Shown here piece after piece: positions 18,381 through 29,835 of a stretch of 64,000 nt of DNA. Source of the stretch: Rhodothermus marinus DSM 4252. Lineage in GTDB: Bacteria; Bacteroidota; Rhodothermia; Rhodothermales; Rhodothermaceae. Location: assembly GCF_000024845.1 (NCBI RefSeq), contig NC_013501.1, positions 872,001 to 936,000 of the forward strand. The letters run 5' to 3'. Made by a program: the position numbers and the translations under genes. Numbering within the stretch: the stretch's first letter is position 1; each line of letters opens with the position of its first letter. The notes below the pieces were generated by a model that saw only the letters and a program-made list of their open reading frames with translations, had not been told where the DNA came from and searched no databases.

Positions 18381-19262
18381 TCAGAACAGTGCCTTTTCGC
18401 GCTGGCGGCTTCCGGTGACCAGGCTGGTAATGCGTACGCCGAACTGCTCGTCGATCACGACGGCTTCGCCCTCGGCGATGAGCCGGCCGTTGGCATAAAT
18501 TTCCAGCGGTTCGCCGACCAGTTTTTCCAGTTCGATGATGCTGCCGGTGGTCAGCCGCAGCACGTCGGCCAGCGGCAGGCGGCGTCGGCCCAGCTCGACG
18601 ACGATCTCCAGCTCGACATCGGCCAGCAGTTCCAGGTTGCCTTTGACGCCGCCGTCGCCGATGCGCTCGGGGCCCAGTTCGCCAAAGGAGGCCGGACGTA
18701 CTTCGACGGCCGCTTGCTCGGCGGCTCCTGCAGCCGTCGCCTTGGGTGCTCTGGAAGTCGGCTGTTGCGTCACGCTCGGAGGTAGCAGAATAAAGCCTTC
18801 GTGCCGCGTGTCACCGATCTGCAGCGTAAATGGAAGTTGCAACAGCGAGTCGGGCAGTTCCACCGGAGGCTGGGCGGCCCCGGAACCGGGCTGCTGGACG
18901 ACGAAGCTTACCTCGGGCAAGCGCACGCCTTCGGCGGCCAGTGCGTTGCGCAGCGTGCCGTAGCCCTGAGCGGCCACTTCGCCTAGCAGGTCATCGGTGC
19001 CCTCGTCGCCGGGGTTGAGCGCTTCGCCCAGCATGGCCTGCGACAGCAGCGGGATCCAGTCCGGCGTCAACCCGATGGCGAACGGCTCGCTGCTGGCCCA
19101 GATGAGCACGCGATCGCCGGCCAGCTCGTTCAGCTGGTCGGTCGTGATCGTGGCAGGCGTACCCAGCTCCAGGGTAAGCTCCTGGTTCAGCAGCGTCTGC
19201 AGAAACTGTTGCAGGGCCTCGCGGGTGGCCTCAAGCCGCGGAAGCGTCGGATTCGAGCTCAT
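18381..19262 (-). CDS. fliN: FliN/FliY-type flagellar switch protein with N-terminal CheC-like region
   Basis: C-ring switch component. The ATG at 19262 (MSSNPTLPRL) gives 293 residues; the frame runs further but lies inside fliM. The C-terminal SpoA domain (about 205-280: LLADVELEIVVELGRRRLPLADVLRLTTGSIIELEKLVGEPLEIYANGRL...) is classic FliN. Residues 1-130 resemble the CheC-type domain of FliY, but the phosphatase signature is broken: D91-x3-E95-x2 is followed by Ala98 instead of Asn, so CheY-P hydrolysis is doubtful. The start overlaps fliM by 32 bases. Confidence 0.9.
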   Translation of the reverse strand: MSSNPTLPRLEATREALQQFLQTLLNQELTLELGTPATITTDQLNELAGDRVLIWASSEPFAIGLTPDWIPLLSQAMLGEALNPGDEGTDDLLGEVAAQGYGTLRNALAAEGVRLPEVSFVVQQPGSGAAQPPVELPDSLLQLPFTLQIGDTRHEGFILLPPSVTQQPTSRAPKATAAGAAEQAAVEVRPASFGELGPERIGDGGVKGNLELLADVELEIVVELGRRRLPLADVLRLTTGSIIELEKLVGEPLEIYANGRLIAEGEAVVIDEQFGVRITSLVTGSRQREKALF

Positions 19263-20277
19263 CTTCCTCAAGCGGTAGTTCCGGGGGGACGACTTCCAGA
19301 ATGCGCAGGGCGCGATGTTTGCCGGAGCGGCCGGGGATCGCCCTGAATTTCTCACGTTCGCCGATGTACACCTGGACGGGTTGATTTACCCGGCGCTCCA
19401 GCACGATCACGTCGCCCACCTCGAGCGTCATCATCTCGCTGAGCTTGATCCGGGTGCGGCCCATCACGGCGCGCAGCTCCACCTCGATTTTTTCCAGTTG
19501 CTCCTCGTAGCGCTGGCGAACGGCCGGAGGCACCTCGGTCGTGGAACTGGAGCGCCACTGCTTCATGGCGCTGTGCCCCAGCATCCGCTCCAGCAGGATG
19601 TACGGATAGCAAATGTTGATAAAAGAGCGCTGCTCGTAAATCGAAACCTCGAACGTGGCCACCAGCGCCGGCTCGACACCCGGCAGGATCTGCACGAACT
19701 CGGCGTTCGATTCGAAGCCGGCTTCTTCCAGGTGGATATCGTGAATCTGTTTCCAGGCCTTTTCCAGCTCCCGAAACGCCCGCATCATGACCTTGTCCAT
19801 GATGCGGCGCTCGATCTGGGAAAGCTCCCGCGGTTTGCGCAGAAAGATGCCCGGTCCACCGAAAAGCTTCTCTACCATGAAAATGGCCAGGCGAGGGTCA
19901 AGCTCCAGGACGATTTTCTGGTGAAGTGGATGGACGTCGACCACGTAGAGCGCCGACGGTGGCGCGCTGGACATCACGAACTCCGAGTAGAGCACCTGGT
20001 CGATAGCCGACAGGCTGATGTCGACCAGCGTGCGGAGCTGCGCCGAAAGATAAACCGAAAGATCGCGGGCGAAGGCTTCGTGCACATAGTGCAGGACCCG
20101 CATCTGGTCCTGCGAAAACAGCCGAGGCCGTTTGAAGTTGTAGGGGAGAATCTTCTTCTCCGCCTCGGCCGTCATCATCGACTCGAGGGCCTCGAGGTCG
20201 TAGTCGCCCTGTTCACCGATCTGGCTACGGACCTCAAGGAGTATGTCGATTTCTTCCTGGCTAAGTGGCTTAGCCAT
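19231..20277 (-). CDS. fliM: FliM, flagellar motor switch protein
   Basis: C-ring protein that binds CheY-P and controls rotation sense. The 348-residue protein begins with the CheY-binding peptide LSQEEIDILL (residues 5-14). A middle CheC-like domain follows, with the family GGPG motif in EKLFGGPG, then a C-terminal SpoA domain (LEVGDVIVLERRVNQPVQVYIGEREKFRAIPGRSGKHRALRI). Its N-terminal peptide resembles the repeated motif in the CheZ-like tail encoded about 6 kb upstream in the locus. It lies between fliL and fliN. Confidence 0.97.
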   Translation of the reverse strand: MAKPLSQEEIDILLEVRSQIGEQGDYDLEALESMMTAEAEKKILPYNFKRPRLFSQDQMRVLHYVHEAFARDLSVYLSAQLRTLVDISLSAIDQVLYSEFVMSSAPPSALYVVDVHPLHQKIVLELDPRLAIFMVEKLFGGPGIFLRKPRELSQIERRIMDKVMMRAFRELEKAWKQIHDIHLEEAGFESNAEFVQILPGVEPALVATFEVSIYEQRSFINICYPYILLERMLGHSAMKQWRSSSTTEVPPAVRQRYEEQLEKIEVELRAVMGRTRIKLSEMMTLEVGDVIVLERRVNQPVQVYIGEREKFRAIPGRSGKHRALRILEVVPPELPLEEDELESDASAA

Positions 20278-23537: not shown

Positions 23538-25850
23538 TCAGGCTGTGACCAGCGCGGCCTGAAAGGCTTCGCTGCCGCGAAGACGCTGCGTTTCCATGCG
23601 CACCAGCTCGCCCACATCCAGAATCATGATCACCCGACCGTCGCCGAGGATCGTGGACCCGGCCACGCCGGGCACCTTCTTGAGGTAGTTGCCCAGCGGC
23701 TTGATCACGATTTCCTTCTGGCCGATCAGATCGTCCACGATCAGGCCCAGTCGATGATGGGCGATGCCCACAATGACGGCGTAGGCCCGTTCGGGATGGT
23801 ACGTCCATCCGGGTACCTGCAGCATTTCGCCCACGCGCAGCAACGGGATGACCGTGTCGCGCAGGCGGATGACTTCGCGGCCTTTGATGGTGTAAACCGT
23901 GTCGGATTCAAGCCCGACCACTTCAATGACCGAATGCAGCGGGATGGCGAAGGCTTCTTCGCCCACGCGCACCAGCAGGCTCTGGATGATGGCCAGCGTC
24001 AGCGGCAGTTTGAGCGTGAAGCGCGTTCCCTGGCCGGGCACCGAATGGACGCTAATGGTGCCGTTCAACTTGGTGATGTTGGTCTTGACCACGTCCATGC
24101 CCACGCCCCGGCCTGATACTTTGCTGACGCGCTGCGCCGTGCTGAAGCCGGCTCGGAAAATAAGCTCCAGCGCCTCGCGGTCGCTCATCTCGGTAGCCTC
24201 TTTCTCAGTGATGAGGCCTTTTTCCAGGGCTTTGGCCTTGATTTTCTCCGGATCGATGCCGGCGCCATCGTCTTCGATTTCGATGACGATGTGGTTGCCC
24301 TCCTGCGAGGCGGCCAGCCGAATGCGGCCGGTGGGCGACTTGCCCCGGGCGCGGCGTGTTTCGGGATCCTCGATGCCGTGGTCGGCGGCATTCCGGATCA
24401 GGTGCACCAGCGGATCGCTGATCTCCTCGATGAGCGACTTGTCCAGCTCGGTCTCTTCGCCCTCGATGATCAGCTCGATCTGCTTGTTGAACTCGCGGGC
24501 CAGATCGCGCACCAGGCGCGGAAACTTGTTGAACACACGGCCGATCTGCACCATGCGCGTGTGCATGACGGCCGACTGCAGCTCGGTGGTGATGAAGTCG
24601 ATCTGGGTGGTCGTGTCGGCCAGCTCGCGGAGCAGCTCGGCGTTGTCGCCGTCGGTGCTCAGCTCGCTGAGAAGCTGGAGCAGTCGGTTGCGGCCCAGCA
24701 CCAGCTCGCCCACCAGGTCCATGAGGTTGTCGAGGCGGCGCACCTCGACGCGGATCGTCTCAGTGCTCTGATCCCGGCGGGCGGCCTGTCCGTTGCCCGA
24801 AGGCGTCGAAGCAGCCGGAGTCGATCGGGACGCATCGGCTGTCTCCGAGGAAGGCGCCGTAGCCGGTGGTGTGGTCCGGGCTTCCGGCGTGGCCGCCGCA
24901 GGCGTAGATCCGGAGCGGGCGGGCGCCGGCTTGCCCTCAGCAATTGCCTGAAGTCTTTCGATGACAGCGCCGATGGGTAGCGGCTGCAGCTTACGTGTTT
25001 CGACCTGGTGGAGGAGTTGTTTCATCAGGTCGAAGGCTTCGAAGAGGACGTCCATCATGGCGGGCTCGAAGGCGAGCGTGCCTTTGCGGAGGCGGTTGAG
25101 GACGTCCTCGAAGTGGTGGGCCAGGAGGCTGAGTTGTTCGAGGCTGAGGAAGCCGGAGGTGCCTTTGACGGTGTGGACGGCGCGGAAGATTTTGTCGACG
25201 AGCTGTCGGTCGTCGGGAGTTTTTTCGAGCTGGAGCAGGTCGTGCTCCAGGTCTTCGAAGATTTCGCGCGTCTCGACGATGAAGCTCTCGACAATCTCCC
25301 GCATCTCCTCCGAAAAGAGCGTCTCGGCCAGGGCCTCCAGAGCAGCGGCTTCCTGGGGGTCAGCAGACGCAGATTGCGCAGGAGTCGGTGCCGATGGTTC
25401 CTGAGGAGCGGTTGGGGTCGTTTTATCGGCGCTTCCGGCTGCAGCCTCCTCGTCGGCCAGCGCTTTGAGCTTACGCAGGATGTCCTCCAGCGGAATGGGC
25501 TGGAGGTTGCGCTCCTCGACCTGGTGGAGGAGTTGTTTCATCAGGTCGAAGGCTTCGAAGAGGACGTCCATCATGGCGGGCTCGAAGGCGAGCGTGCCTT
25601 TGCGGAGGCGGTTGAGGACGTCCTCGAAGTGGTGGGCCAGGAGGCTGAGTTGTTCGAGGCTGAGGAAGCCGGAGGTGCCTTTGACGGTGTGGACGGCGCG
25701 GAAGATTTTGTCGACGAGCTGTCGGTCGTCGGGAGTTTTTTCGAGCTGGAGCAGGTCGTGCTCCAGGTCTTCGAAGATTTCGCGCGTCTCGACGATGAAG
25801 CTCTCGACAATCTCCCGCATCTCCTCCGAAAAAATCGGATGCTCGCTCAT
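23538..25850 (-). CDS. cheA: CheA chemotaxis kinase with two identical Hpt domains
   Basis: Histidine kinase that reads receptor arrays and phosphorylates CheY and CheB. The 770-residue order is: Hpt1 (about 7-112, phospho-His54 in AVHTVKGTSGF); linker; Hpt2 (about 179-284, His226), which repeats Hpt1 exactly; a Pro/Ala/Thr-rich linker (about 300-370); dimerisation helix with RRLDNLMDLVGELVLGRNRL; ATPase domain (N box HLIRNAADHGIEDPETR, GVGMDVVKTNI); and a C-terminal CheW-like domain. No P2 CheY-docking domain is evident. It lies between the cheZ-like gene and cheB. Confidence 0.96.
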   Translation of the reverse strand: MSEHPIFSEEMREIVESFIVETREIFEDLEHDLLQLEKTPDDRQLVDKIFRAVHTVKGTSGFLSLEQLSLLAHHFEDVLNRLRKGTLAFEPAMMDVLFEAFDLMKQLLHQVEERNLQPIPLEDILRKLKALADEEAAAGSADKTTPTAPQEPSAPTPAQSASADPQEAAALEALAETLFSEEMREIVESFIVETREIFEDLEHDLLQLEKTPDDRQLVDKIFRAVHTVKGTSGFLSLEQLSLLAHHFEDVLNRLRKGTLAFEPAMMDVLFEAFDLMKQLLHQVETRKLQPLPIGAVIERLQAIAEGKPAPARSGSTPAAATPEARTTPPATAPSSETADASRSTPAASTPSGNGQAARRDQSTETIRVEVRRLDNLMDLVGELVLGRNRLLQLLSELSTDGDNAELLRELADTTTQIDFITTELQSAVMHTRMVQIGRVFNKFPRLVRDLAREFNKQIELIIEGEETELDKSLIEEISDPLVHLIRNAADHGIEDPETRRARGKSPTGRIRLAASQEGNHIVIEIEDDGAGIDPEKIKAKALEKGLITEKEATEMSDREALELIFRAGFSTAQRVSKVSGRGVGMDVVKTNITKLNGTISVHSVPGQGTRFTLKLPLTLAIIQSLLVRVGEEAFAIPLHSVIEVVGLESDTVYTIKGREVIRLRDTVIPLLRVGEMLQVPGWTYHPERAYAVIVGIAHHRLGLIVDDLIGQKEIVIKPLGNYLKKVPGVAGSTILGDGRVIMILDVGELVRMETQRLRGSEAFQAALVTA
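25000..25316. repeat. 317-bp perfect direct repeat, copy A (Hpt2 of cheA)
   Basis: This segment matches 25516-25832 base for base over the 317 positions I compared, at a fixed offset of 516. It encodes the second Hpt domain of CheA. Identity at synonymous sites means recent duplication or ongoing gene conversion rather than only protein-level selection. Confidence 0.9.
25516..25832. repeat. 317-bp perfect direct repeat, copy B (Hpt1 of cheA)
   Basis: Partner of the repeat at 25000-25316, encoding the first Hpt domain. The sequences diverge at once on both sides of the repeat: the linker between them and the flanks share no such identity. Confidence 0.9.
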
Positions 25851-25880
25851 GGCACCACTCTCTGGCTATTGGTGGGGACG

Positions 25881-26891
25881 TCAGCTATTCGAGTCGTTCC
25901 GCTTCGGATTGAACAGGGCATCGATTTCGTCCTGGGAGGCGGGGGTGCTTCCACCGCCGAACAGGGCGTCGATTTCGTCCTGGGAGGCGGGAGTGCTTCC
26001 GCCGCCGAACAGGGCGTCGATTTCATCCTGCGAGGTCGGGGTGCCGCTGCTGAACAGACTATCGATTTCGTCCTGCGAGGCCGGTGTGCTGTTTCCGCTA
26101 AAGAGTGCGTCGATTTCGTCCTGCGAAGCCGGACCAGTGCTTTCGCCATCTTCCGGAAGCGATGCATTGTGCTGCAGGGCGTCGACCAGCGCGTCGACCT
26201 GTTGCTGGCGGCGGCCGTCACGATCGTAGCGGGCGTGGGGATCGAACGTCCCTTCGGCAAAGAGCTGCCGGGGCAGCTCCAGGTCGTCGAGCACCTCACT
26301 GCCCAGTCGCCGGATGAGCTGGGCCATGCGATACCGCACCGACTCGATCAGGTGGTTGACGGCGGCCAGCTGCTGGGCGGTGATGTCCTGCACCTGCAGC
26401 GCCATCATGATGCGGTTCATGCGATCGCGCAGCGAGTCGACGAGCTGCTGCTGGCTTTCCAGCATGGCCTGCAGCGTGGCATAATGCTGCCGGCGCTCTT
26501 CCAGCAGCGTCTGGAGCCGCTCGTTCCAGCTCTCCGGAAGCGGCTGCCAGAGCTGCTCCTCCTGGGATTGCAGCGTCTGGAGCGCCTCGGGTGCCGCGGC
26601 CCAGGACTTTCTGAACGTATCCAGGTCATTCAGCACCACGTCGATCAGGTCGAGGATCTCCGTGGTGGCCATTTCGGTGGCCTGCGTGACGCTTTTGAGC
26701 TGCGAGCTTGCCCGCGGCATTTTGCGGGTGCTTTCGGCCAGCGAGTCGTTGACCTCCGAGAGGAGCGGGGAGATCTCCCGGAGGAAATAGACCACCTCTT
26801 CGATGAACGGAATGGCCCGTTGGCCGAGAATGAAGACGGCGCGCAGCTCGTTCAGCTTGGAAAGCAGCTCCTGTATGTGATTGGTCGTCAT
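25881..26891 (-). CDS. cheZ: CheZ-like CheY-P phosphatase with five tail repeats
   Basis: Predicted to dephosphorylate CheY-P. The 336-residue protein is long and helical at 1-215, with the CheZ-type core IMMALQVQDITAQQL (161-175). Asp169 and Gln173 fall at the D-x3-Q spacing of the E. coli CheZ catalytic D143/Q147. After a Gln-rich hinge, residues 253-328 are five tandem copies of [P/T]-x-S-Q-D-E-I-D-[A/S]-L-F joined by short Gly/Ser/Thr-Pro links. The motif resembles both the E. coli CheZ tail peptide (ASQDQVDDLL) and the FliM N-terminus here (LSQEEIDILL). It sits between cheY and cheA. Identification rests on motifs and context; the N-half is divergent. Confidence 0.82.
   Translation of the reverse strand: MTTNHIQELLSKLNELRAVFILGQRAIPFIEEVVYFLREISPLLSEVNDSLAESTRKMPRASSQLKSVTQATEMATTEILDLIDVVLNDLDTFRKSWAAAPEALQTLQSQEEQLWQPLPESWNERLQTLLEERRQHYATLQAMLESQQQLVDSLRDRMNRIMMALQVQDITAQQLAAVNHLIESVRYRMAQLIRRLGSEVLDDLELPRQLFAEGTFDPHARYDRDGRRQQQVDALVDALQHNASLPEDGESTGPASQDEIDALFSGNSTPASQDEIDSLFSSGTPTSQDEIDALFGGGSTPASQDEIDALFGGGSTPASQDEIDALFNPKRNDSNS
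25908..26135 (-). repeat. Five tandem SQDEIDALF repeats in the cheZ-like gene
   Basis: The reading frame encodes SQDEIDALF or SQDEIDSLF five times at spacings of 14 to 16 residues. The last three units are very similar at the DNA level; the first two differ more. The array ends nine residues before the stop. Confidence 0.92.
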
Positions 26892-26901
26892 TGCGGCCTC
26901 C

Positions 26902-27282
26902 TCAGGCGGTTTTCAGAATCAGGTTGATCTTTTCGCGGAGCACTTCCGGCGTAAAGGGCTTGACGATGTAGTTGTTGACGCGGGCTTGCATCGCGGCGAT
27001 CACGTCCTCCTTCATCCCGCGTGTGGTGACCATCAGGATCGGCAGGTTGCCGAAGCGGGCGTGACTGCGAATGGCTTTCGTCAGCTCCAGCCCGTTCATG
27101 TTGGGCATGTTCCAGTCGGTGATGACGAAGTCGATGGAGCCCTGCTCCAGTTTTTCCAGCGCGTCGGCCCCATCGCTGGCCTCGACCACGTCGGTGTAGC
27201 CGATCTCGCGCAGCGCGTTGCAGACGATGCGCCGCATCGTGGGGGAATCATCGACGACCAGGAACGTCATGGCTTCGCTCAT
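26902..27282 (-). CDS. cheY: CheY response regulator, next to the CheZ-like gene
   Basis: Single receiver domain of 126 residues that carries the phosphoryl signal from CheA to FliM. It has the acidic pair in VVDDSPTMRRIV, phospho-Asp in VITDWNMPNMNGLEL, the Thr switch in LMVTTRGMKED and Lys in YIVKPFTPE, all close to the classic E. coli CheY. AAAAGG precedes the ATG at 27282; Met5 at 27270 is a second possible start. It is followed 10 bases later by the cheZ-like gene, which favours this copy as the motor-binding CheY. Confidence 0.95.
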   Translation of the reverse strand: MSEAMTFLVVDDSPTMRRIVCNALREIGYTDVVEASDGADALEKLEQGSIDFVITDWNMPNMNGLELTKAIRSHARFGNLPILMVTTRGMKEDVIAAMQARVNNYIVKPFTPEVLREKINLILKTA

Positions 27283-27303: not shown

Positions 27304-27669
27304 TCAGGAGATAAACTTGGACACTTCGTACTGCAGTCGTTGTGCGTCAAAGGGTTTGGTCAGGTAGGCCTGCACGCCCAGTTGCTGGCTCTGGCTGACC
27401 AGCTCGGCATCTTCGAGCGAAGACAGCACCAGGATCGGGATGTGGGCGTACTCCGGGTCGGAGCGCAGCGCCTGCACCAGACCGATCCCGTCCATCTTGG
27501 GCATGTTCAGGTCGGTAATGACCAGATCGACCGGCGTCTGGGCAATTTTTTCCAGCGCTTCCAGGCCGTCGCAGGCCGTCAGCACCGTGAGGCCCTGGGC
27601 CCGCAGGGCAAACGTGACGAACTTGCGGGCCGTGCTGGAGTCGTCGACGACGAGAACCGTCTTAGCCAT
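27304..27669 (-). CDS. Second CheY-like response regulator
   Basis: Single receiver domain, 121 residues from the ATG at 27669, which overlaps the end of cheR by eight bases. The acidic pair (VVDDSSTARKFV), phospho-Asp (VITDLNMPKMDGIGLV), switch region (LVLSSLEDAELV) and Lys (AYLTKPFDAQ) are all present. Ser replaces the usual Thr at the switch. It could act as a phosphate sink for CheA, an adaptation regulator with the neighbouring CheR, or a second motor ligand; the sequence does not decide. Confidence 0.92.
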   Translation of the reverse strand: MAKTVLVVDDSSTARKFVTFALRAQGLTVLTACDGLEALEKIAQTPVDLVITDLNMPKMDGIGLVQALRSDPEYAHIPILVLSSLEDAELVSQSQQLGVQAYLTKPFDAQRLQYEVSKFIS

Positions 27670-28555
27670 GGCGATACGGGCTATTTTCGGAAGCTTCGGC
27701 TTCTTTTCGGTAAACAATGGCCTTGCCAAAACGCACCGGCTGGAAGGCCTGGCTGATGCCGTAAAGGGTCTCCGAGAACCCGATAAACAGGTAGCCGCCC
27801 GGTACCAGACTCCGGTAGAATGACTGGACCACGCGGCGCTTCATATTATCGTCGAAATAGATGAGAACATTAGCGCAGATGATTAAATCGAAATTCCGCA
27901 TGGCATTCATGGCGACCGCATCGGCCAGGTTCAACACCTGGAATTTCACCATCTTGCGAATTTCCTCGCGGACCTGGTAGCGATCGCCCTGCTGGACGAA
28001 ATAGCGTTGAAGATATTCAGGCGGCACGTTGCGGATGGCATAGTCGCCGTAGATCCCCTGCTGGGCCTGCTGGAGCACGTTCGTGTTGATGTCGGTGCCG
28101 ATGATCTCGAACCGGGCATAGGGATGGCGCGGCAGAATGCGATCCCGCAGAAAAATGGCCAGCGTGTAGGGCTCTTCGCCGCTGGAGCAGCCCGCACTCC
28201 AGATGCGGATCTGGTGTTTGGTGCGCAGCCACTCAGGCAGAATGTGTTCTTCCAGCACTTCCAGATGGCCGGGCGCGCGAAAGAAATAGGTTTCGTTGAT
28301 GGTGATGGCGTTGACCAGATGACGGAATTCCTCCCGCGCCTGGCCGTTCTGCAGAGCATGCAGGTAGGCCCGGCCGTTCGGCAGGCGGAGTTCATTCAGG
28401 CGGCGTCCGACCCGGCTTTCCAGCAGATAGCGCTTGTTGTCCTGAAAGTAGATGCCGGTCTTTTCGTAGATCAGCTGGCGCAACTGCTGGAATTCTGCGT
28501 CCGAAAGGACGCCCTGTTGTTGCGGGGTCAGGGGTAGGCGTGCCAGCAGACTCAT
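27662..28555 (-). CDS. cheR: CheR, chemoreceptor methyltransferase
   Basis: SAM-dependent methylation of receptor glutamates. The 297-residue protein has the helical N-domain (FQQLRQLIYEKTGIYFQDNKRYLLESRVGRRL) and the ITINETYFFRAPGHLEVLEEHILPE block. The SAM site IRIWSAGCSSGEEPYTLAIFL follows, with FDLIICANVLIYFD and GGYLFIGFSETL later. No C-terminal pentapeptide-receptor-binding extension or TPR is fused. The start lies 14 bases after the HEAT-repeat gene. Confidence 0.97.
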   Translation of the reverse strand: MSLLARLPLTPQQQGVLSDAEFQQLRQLIYEKTGIYFQDNKRYLLESRVGRRLNELRLPNGRAYLHALQNGQAREEFRHLVNAITINETYFFRAPGHLEVLEEHILPEWLRTKHQIRIWSAGCSSGEEPYTLAIFLRDRILPRHPYARFEIIGTDINTNVLQQAQQGIYGDYAIRNVPPEYLQRYFVQQGDRYQVREEIRKMVKFQVLNLADAVAMNAMRNFDLIICANVLIYFDDNMKRRVVQSFYRSLVPGGYLFIGFSETLYGISQAFQPVRFGKAIVYRKEAEASENSPYRHG

Positions 28556-28569
28556 GGCGGTGCGGGGTT

Positions 28570-29835
28570 TCAGGACTGGTAGGCAGAACTACGGCGGGCC
28601 GTGCAGAGCGCGTCGTCGGCATAGTGGCGCACGGCCGGATCGGGGTCGTGCAATCCCTGCTGAACCAGAGCAAAGAAGGCGGGGTGCTGCAGTTGCAGGC
28701 CCAGCGTGATGGCCGCCATTTTGGTTTCGGCATCCAGGCTTTCGAAGTGGGCCTGAAGGAACTGGGCCGCCTGGGGCAATTGAAAGTCGTCCAGGCGGCC
28801 GTGGGTCAGGAGTGCGATGGCAAAGCCGGCGGCCGCGTCGAGCGACATCCGGCCCGTTTCGGCGCAGCGGGCCACACAGGCGAACGCCCTGGGATGGGTG
28901 GAAATGGCCTCGAACAGGGCCAGGTCCAGCTCGTCGTGCTGCCCCGCATGCTCCAGCATGGCCTCGATGGTCGCCTCATCGAGCATGTGGCGCAGGCCAC
29001 GCACGGCCGCTTTTTTGAAGCTCAGATCAGGCTCCTGAAGCATTTCCAGCAGGTAGGGACGAAGCCGTTCCGGAAGCGGCGGTACCGGCCCGGTGGCCGA
29101 CTCGTAGGCCTCGATCAGGTCGTAGAGCACTAAGGGACGGGCTTCGGGTGTGGCCTGCTCGACCTGGCGCAGCAGCAGATGCAGCACTTCAGGAATCGGA
29201 TACCGCGCGAGTGCTTCAGCGGCGGCGTACTGGACGACCGGGTCCGGATCGTTCAGGGCCGCCTCGACGAGCTGCAGCCCGCGTGCATCCCGGAACGTCC
29301 CCAGCGCCGCCAGGATGTGCGGCCGCTCGGCCGGGTAAAACCGATAGCGTTCGCGCAGCACCGGGGCGTACTCGGTAGCCCCCAGCGCGGCCAGCGCATC
29401 GATGGCGGCCAGGCGGACGTTCGTGTCCGGATCGTCCAGCCGGGCCGCGATGCGATCGACTACGTCGTAGGCCGGGAGCTGCGCCAGGACGTCGATGGCA
29501 AACTTGCGCGCGTCCGCATCGTCGATGTCCACGTAGGGCAGGAGCGCCTGAATCGAAGGCGCGCCGATGCGGACGAGCACCTCGCCGGCCAGGTTGCGCA
29601 CAGGCAACTCGGGATGCTGGATGAGCGGCACCACCGCCCGGGCCGCTTCCTCGGTGCCGATGGCCACCAGATGCTCGGCTGCGGCTTCGCGAATGCCCGG
29701 ATCGGGATCCTGCAGGCAGTGGGCCGCGACCGGAATCGTTTCGGCGGGCGTGTGGGTGGCCAGCAACTCGTTCAGCGCATCCAGACGAACAGACGGATCC
29801 GGATGCTGCAGGCCTTCAGGCAGCATCATCGACAT
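28570..29835 (-). CDS. HEAT-repeat protein inside the chemotaxis operon
   Basis: A 421-residue soluble protein built of repeated helical pairs of about 30 residues (for example DPDPGIREAAAEHLVAIG, DPDTNVRLAAIDALAALG, DPDPVVQYAAAEALARYP, DPDPAVRHYADDAL). These are typical PBS/HEAT repeats. The middle (about 230-390) is less regular. No signal peptide, membrane segment or catalytic motif is seen, so it is probably a protein-binding scaffold. It is placed between cheW and cheR with 14-24 base gaps, so it should be co-expressed with them. I know no standard chemotaxis protein of this kind. Confidence 0.88.
   Translation of the reverse strand: MSMMLPEGLQHPDPSVRLDALNELLATHTPAETIPVAAHCLQDPDPGIREAAAEHLVAIGTEEAARAVVPLIQHPELPVRNLAGEVLVRIGAPSIQALLPYVDIDDADARKFAIDVLAQLPAYDVVDRIAARLDDPDTNVRLAAIDALAALGATEYAPVLRERYRFYPAERPHILAALGTFRDARGLQLVEAALNDPDPVVQYAAAEALARYPIPEVLHLLLRQVEQATPEARPLVLYDLIEAYESATGPVPPLPERLRPYLLEMLQEPDLSFKKAAVRGLRHMLDEATIEAMLEHAGQHDELDLALFEAISTHPRAFACVARCAETGRMSLDAAAGFAIALLTHGRLDDFQLPQAAQFLQAHFESLDAETKMAAITLGLQLQHPAFFALVQQGLHDPDPAVRHYADDALCTARRSSAYQS

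Follow-up and report, generated by a model that had tools for sequence, protein, structure and literature searches.

The window, i.e., the 64,000-nucleotide stretch of the Rhodothermus marinus DSM 4252 genome analyzed here, carries fliM, a fliN/fliY-like gene, fliL, motA, motB, export genes, fliG, fliF and fliD together with che genes, among which cheY2, cheY1, cheZ and cheA follow each other in this order (Table 1). The FliN-like protein (18381-19355) has a long N-terminal extension and partial FliY matches (113 bits vs. a cut-off of 218). Between cheR and cheW, a 421-residue HEAT-repeat protein is encoded at 28570-29835, an unusual neighbor for a chemotaxis operon. The two Hpt copies of cheA (24982-25281 and 25498-25797) share 98% DNA identity over 300 nt; this pair, beside the CheZ array described below, reflects either a recent duplication or gene conversion. 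The lack of a clear P2 domain in CheA, pointed out in an earlier note on this DNA, agrees with the Pfam search, which detected none.

The 336-residue product of cheZ belongs to the CheZ family of CheY phosphatases, its phosphatase activity being predicted from the sequence. It matches PF04344 (CheZ) over residues 47-239 with 42.5 bits against a cut-off of 30.7, and it gives weak matches to the NCBIfam CheZ equivalog models, all under their cut-offs. A family profile built from 35 relatives had the E. coli CheZ structure 1KMI as its top PDB match (E 3.8e-5), and in this profile alignment the R. marinus QDITAQ segment falls on QDLTGQ of 1KMI, the site of the E. coli catalytic pair. The family assignment of the N-terminal half proposed in the earlier note is thus borne out, and so is its catalytic pair: D169 and Q173 show no variation among the 35 aligned sequences, which indicates that catalysis is retained. 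The pN/pS of the cheZ core, about 0.07-0.22, points to purifying selection. A broad set of flagellar and chemotaxis genes, with a cheZ core under such selection, is found in a species described as non-motile.

The AlphaFold2 monomer model of CheZ has long helices at residues 3-97 and 120-202 and a tail of mostly low confidence, in which short helices appear at four of the five repeated units (257-265, 288-296, 304-312 and 320-327). A Foldseek comparison of this monomer model with the PDB returned insignificant coiled-coil matches only. A 639-residue open frame runs antisense to cheZ and cheA (25008-26927, forward strand) and most likely results from codon usage at high GC content together with the repeats.

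Table 1. Features of the R. marinus chemotaxis locus (nucleotide positions in the window)
Feature	Positions	Strand	Basis and remarks
FliM N-terminal docking peptide SQEEIDILL	20236..20262	-	Sequence; FliM Pfam match; presumed competitor
cheA	23538..25850	-	Pfam; 300-nt repeat; two near-identical Hpt (P1) domains, no P2 detected
cheZ, 336 aa	25881..26891	-	ORF and Pfam PF04344; core residues ~1-205, tail ~206-336
Unit 5, SQDEIDALF, residues 319-327	25911..25937	-	Sequence; model helix 320-327; C-terminal, ancestral position
Unit 4, SQDEIDALF, residues 303-311	25959..25985	-	Sequence; model helix 304-312
Unit 3, SQDEIDALF, residues 287-295	26007..26033	-	Sequence; model helix 288-296
Unit 2, SQDEIDSLF, residues 272-280	26052..26078	-	Sequence
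Unit 1, SQDEIDALF, residues 256-264	26100..26126	-	Sequence; model helix 257-265
RQQQVDALV, residues 228-236	26184..26210	-	Relatives' pattern and profile alignment; docking-like element before the array
Catalytic motif D169-I-T-A-Q173	26373..26387	-	Invariant in CheZ alignment; aligns with E. coli D143/Q147 region of 1KMI
cheY1, likely client	26902..27282	-	Docking-face K92, Y106, V108 and K119 kept (E. coli numbering)
cheY2, second response regulator	27304..27672	-	Docking face altered (K119E, V108T, K91D, K92A); longest open frame to 27729

The repeated tail units and known CheY-docking peptides

The CheZ tail contains four exact copies of SQDEIDALF and one SQDEIDSLF, spaced by 16, 15, 16 and 16 residues. 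The earlier note had described five SQDEIDALF repeats at 14-16-residue spacing; the five units and their extent (25908-26135, residues 253-328) stand, while one copy differs and the spacing is 15-16 residues. Tandem Repeats Finder scored the array at 248-251 and the sole other array in the window at 56. Residues 241-336 have a net charge of -17.

The E. coli CheZ tail in PDB 1KMI reads ...VASQDQVDDLLDSLGF, matching the peptide that the earlier note had quoted, and its C-terminal end, SQDQVDDLLDSLGF, resembles the R. marinus units. The FliM encoded in the window begins with MAKPLSQEEIDILL, with LSQEEIDILL at 20236-20265. FliM residues contacting CheY in structure 1F4V include L6, Q8, I11, D12 and L14, and CheZ and FliM share one CheY face (PMC3774744). 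All five units carry Q, I, D, L and F, the equivalents of FliM Q8, I11, D12, L14 and the hydrophobic residue 15; the proposed resemblance to both peptides therefore extends to the CheY-contact residues. The 63 CheZ proteins examined supplied 62 terminal and 52 internal units. Across these 114, hardly any change is seen at I, D, L and the F at the end, whereas positions 3 and 7 are variable; internal units keep I, D, L/M and F just as terminal units do. Conservation at these four positions is partly by construction, since unit selection demanded I/V, D/N, L/M and F, but that of S and Q is not; the Q is conserved in 58/62 terminal and 40/52 internal units.

Compared with E. coli CheZ (1KMI, solved in complex with CheY), the R. 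marinus protein has the same phosphatase core with DxxxQ and a flexible tail with matching contact positions, ending in SQDQVDDLL in E. coli; the difference lies in one docking peptide versus five. The Bacteroidota CheZ units also end in LF instead of LL, and these proteins have an extra RQxxVDxII-type element where the E. coli peptide is located. This pattern is present in 55 of the 63 CheZ relatives, mostly 59-62 residues past the catalytic Asp. In R. marinus, RQQQVDALV aligns with the E. coli CheZ tail in the profile comparison and begins at +59 relative to the catalytic Asp, compared with +58 for the docking peptide of E. coli CheZ. The element could be the original docking site or could act as a weaker, sixth one. 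The FliM N-terminal peptide (1F4V) has the same SQxEIDxL core and predicted CheY face, but it is a single copy at the N-terminus of a motor switch protein, in contrast to a C-terminal array on a phosphatase. ChePep of Campylobacterota has repeats and is likewise a CheY-pathway protein that works with CheZ. Nevertheless, it is a separate protein, on which CheZ localization depends (PMC7750401), whereas the units described here are in the tail of CheZ itself.

The whole 3.39-Mb genome was scanned with a degenerate-codon pattern for SQxxIDxL-type units, using the reversed pattern as a control. The motif was found at six sites only, five of them within cheZ and the sixth at the N-terminus of FliM, far beyond chance considering the single match of the control. 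Among Bacteroidota, to which all of the genome surveys were confined, tandem-pattern matches occurred in 12 of 114 order-level and 8 of 297 phylum-level genomes (the two sets overlap). These matches adjoin a Pfam CheZ match in all genomes but two (G276 and G284), and these two were dropped as counter-examples because both proteins are CheZ by sequence. A generic linker or low-complexity repeat, a reading under which the units would recur in unrelated proteins, was therefore rejected, the motif being limited in the genome to CheZ and FliM and its tandem form in relatives to CheZ. A single contig scan that reached beyond the phylum returned mainly single-unit alphaproteobacterial relatives; its Jannaschia match was discarded as a chance single motif in an apparent crotonase-like protein. 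Searches for the five-unit tail in plasmids and for relatives of the CheZ protein in viral contigs gave no match.

Unit number among CheZ relatives

The survey of relatives for repeat number that the earlier note had suggested gave, under the unit criteria stated above, one to five units in 62 of 63 CheZ proteins: one unit in 36, two in 11, three in six, four in seven, five in two and none in one. Within Rhodothermus, the counts were 5, 5, 4, 4, 4 and 2, plus one genome (G046) with an assembly gap inside its array, for which reason its assignment as a one-unit CheZ was rejected. An assembly gap of G046 also extends into the cheA Hpt region mentioned above. The low count of G054, whose array is close to the end of a contig and has repeat-rich surroundings, could be a collapse. 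A separate clade has one to four units. Arrays of two to five units are not unique to the R. marinus genome, being distributed across Rhodothermales and also present in a second clade. In a quick core tree, whose deeper forks are moderately supported, the multi-unit tails fall in two separate groups, one of Rhodothermales and one with Kapaibacteria among its members.

All relatives but one have their last unit within 1-9 residues of the CheZ C-terminus, which identifies this unit as the ancestral one; the single unit of 36 of the 63 proteins holds the position of unit 5. The single-unit CheZ proteins of Ignavibacteria, Melioribacter and Kryptonia (loci L009 and L038-L061) have a related core, a terminal SQDEIDKLF and the same cheY1-cheZ order, any cheY2 that was found lying upstream, but they differ in having one unit only. 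Kryptonia originate from hot springs. Since Kryptonia carry one unit, heat adaptation as the cause of the array receives no support from the named relatives.

Other tails and loci depart from the common pattern. The L022 tail (genome G023, second group) has three EDIDIDALF units followed by SQDDIDALF, and the L094 tail (G315) has four degenerate xxDIDxLF-type units. Loci L007, L008 and L031 each contain two CheZ-like genes, neither with the docking motif. In two Rhodothermus genomes, weak second CheZ profile matches of about 20 bits were obtained in frames of 442-455 residues (L100 in G054 and L101 in G321). Locus L005 of G248, a Bacteroidota genome bin, encodes a proteobacterial-type CheZ close to that of E. 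coli (183 bits), due to either contamination or horizontal transfer.

The two CheY proteins

CheY1 retains most of the docking face, while in CheY2 it is reversed (Table 1); CheY1-P is thus the likely client of the predicted array. K119, which in CheY pairs with FliM D12 (PMC3774744), is present in 64 of 64 CheY1 orthologues, and E119 is present in 22 of 22 CheY2 sequences. CheY1 is without K91 and K122, two polar FliM contacts, which counts against the docking reading. CheY2 is probably not a client, as judged from its altered face; in Vibrio cholerae CheY4, a spatially and electrostatically incompatible face goes together with the absence of FliM binding (PMC3774744).

The cheY1-cheZ order is widespread in relatives, and cheY2-cheY1-cheZ is also seen with a one-unit CheZ. 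The presence of two CheY proteins consequently does not explain the array, and the special hub for both of them envisaged in the earlier note is not supported, given this shared gene order and the loss of the CheY2 docking face.

Interpretation of the five-unit tail

Selection on the units was estimated from pN/pS, with the motif located by the fixed pattern SQ..ID.LF, so that six of its nine positions are held by the search itself. Unit pairs within Rhodothermus genomes gave a value of 0.098 over the nine codons of the motif, compared with 0.44 in linkers of the same length; considering all unit pairs, the values were 0.09 and 0.55, respectively. Synonymous change was abundant, and reading of the tails revealed no additional decayed unit overlooked by the pattern. 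We read the low motif values beside drifting linkers as purifying selection on the internal units, which argues against extra units that arose as a by-product of slippage and are tolerated in a disordered tail, with the last unit alone working. Slippage would be in keeping with the differing unit numbers of close relatives (2, 4 and 5) and with the near-identical cheA duplication at the same locus, which suggests that duplication is frequent here. Nevertheless, recent duplication could lower the differences between units but not shift the motif-to-linker ratio so far. Additionally, the internal units keep the same four residues as the terminal one, and tails with several units are seen in two clades that are separate from each other. 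We therefore regard slippage as an unlikely explanation.

An alternative compatible with the docking-array explanation is that the tail mainly withholds CheY1-P from FliM, as a sponge or motor competitor in which the phosphatase is secondary. The motif common to FliM and the units and the single CheY face used by CheZ and FliM (PMC3774744) speak for it, but with D169 and Q173 invariant in the 35 sequences, catalysis would normally empty such a sponge fast, and a mainly sequestering role appears quite improbable. The array might also bind a partner other than CheY, e.g., CheA or a polar scaffold, and localize CheZ, as other CheZ localization signals exist (E. coli CheA, ChePep and the AXXFQ motif of Azorhizobium; PMC7750401). 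This is the least credible of the alternatives and we consider it very improbable, because elsewhere in the genome the motif is found only at the N-terminus of FliM, a known CheY ligand, and because the conserved unit positions are the CheY-contact residues.

The CheZ identity, the match at the contact residues, the occurrence of the motif in CheZ and FliM alone, the tandem form seen only in CheZ and the purifying selection together make a multivalent docking array the best explanation. We consider it probable that the CheZ tail is an array for CheY1-P that captures more of it for dephosphorylation, in competition with FliM; binding, CheY1-P preference, capture and competition are what we infer from sequence comparisons. 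The array proposed in the earlier note is thereby favored, although a structural model gave it no help: in an AlphaFold2 read-through model of cheY1-cheZ from a relative with four units (L021, one stop read through), a weak method here, the units had a pLDDT of about 40-60 and no confident docking, an outcome that speaks neither for docking nor against it. A point against this reading is that R. marinus has been described as non-motile, with flagella not observed (PMC3035238). Salinibacter ruber, of the same order, is flagellated (PMC5167729).

Under the docking-array explanation, a single C-terminal CheY-docking peptide would have been amplified to a flexible array of five, and the docking sites per CheZ dimer would have risen from two to ten, beside two active sites. 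Each unit would probably form a short helix that packs against the alpha4-beta5-alpha5 face of CheY1-P, the face that FliM would also use. CheY1-P held near D169/Q173 would be dephosphorylated and released, so that less would arrive at the FliM ring. Since CheY1 has one docking face, the array should increase capacity and allow fast recapture but should not provide avidity for one CheY molecule. A repeat of 15-16 residues reaches about 40 Å, roughly one CheY diameter, and neighboring units may therefore be co-occupied, although tightly. The volume of an E. coli cell is about 1.4 fL, and CheY docking has a Kd near 26 µM. E. coli has 1,600 CheZ dimers (PMC1447658). With these E. coli-like numbers (about 3.8 µM CheZ chains), and as an illustration only, about 13% of dilute CheY-P would be held with one site per chain and about 42% with five.

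In a model put forward for E. coli, CheY-P connects two CheZ dimers, being bound to the tail of the first and to the active site of the second (PMC1447658). Extending this oligomer model, CheY-P docked on one CheZ and engaged by the active site of another would produce cross-linking. It is conceivable, if rather doubtful, that unit number is evolvable and that ten tail sites per dimer cross-link CheZ and CheY1-P into a phosphorylation-triggered cluster with a sharper signal shut-off.

In the open-access literature searched, no description of a CheZ with a docking array was found. The array multiplies a docking peptide that is already known, and the enzyme is a known one as well, but the CheZ form that carries it is new. 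Studies on how docking affinity, apart from catalysis, governs CheY-P removal, its gain as well as its speed, have mostly relied on one tail peptide. Here, nature supplies a series of CheZ tails, from one docking unit up to five on related cores, beside CheY proteins with and without the docking face, which makes the array worth a biochemical test: the dose effect of docking sites and the competition between phosphatase and motor for CheY-P become directly testable with purified proteins. The array is also an example of a short linear motif spreading through tandem duplication, and the number of docking hooks would be a natural, testable setting of the hold of CheZ on CheY.
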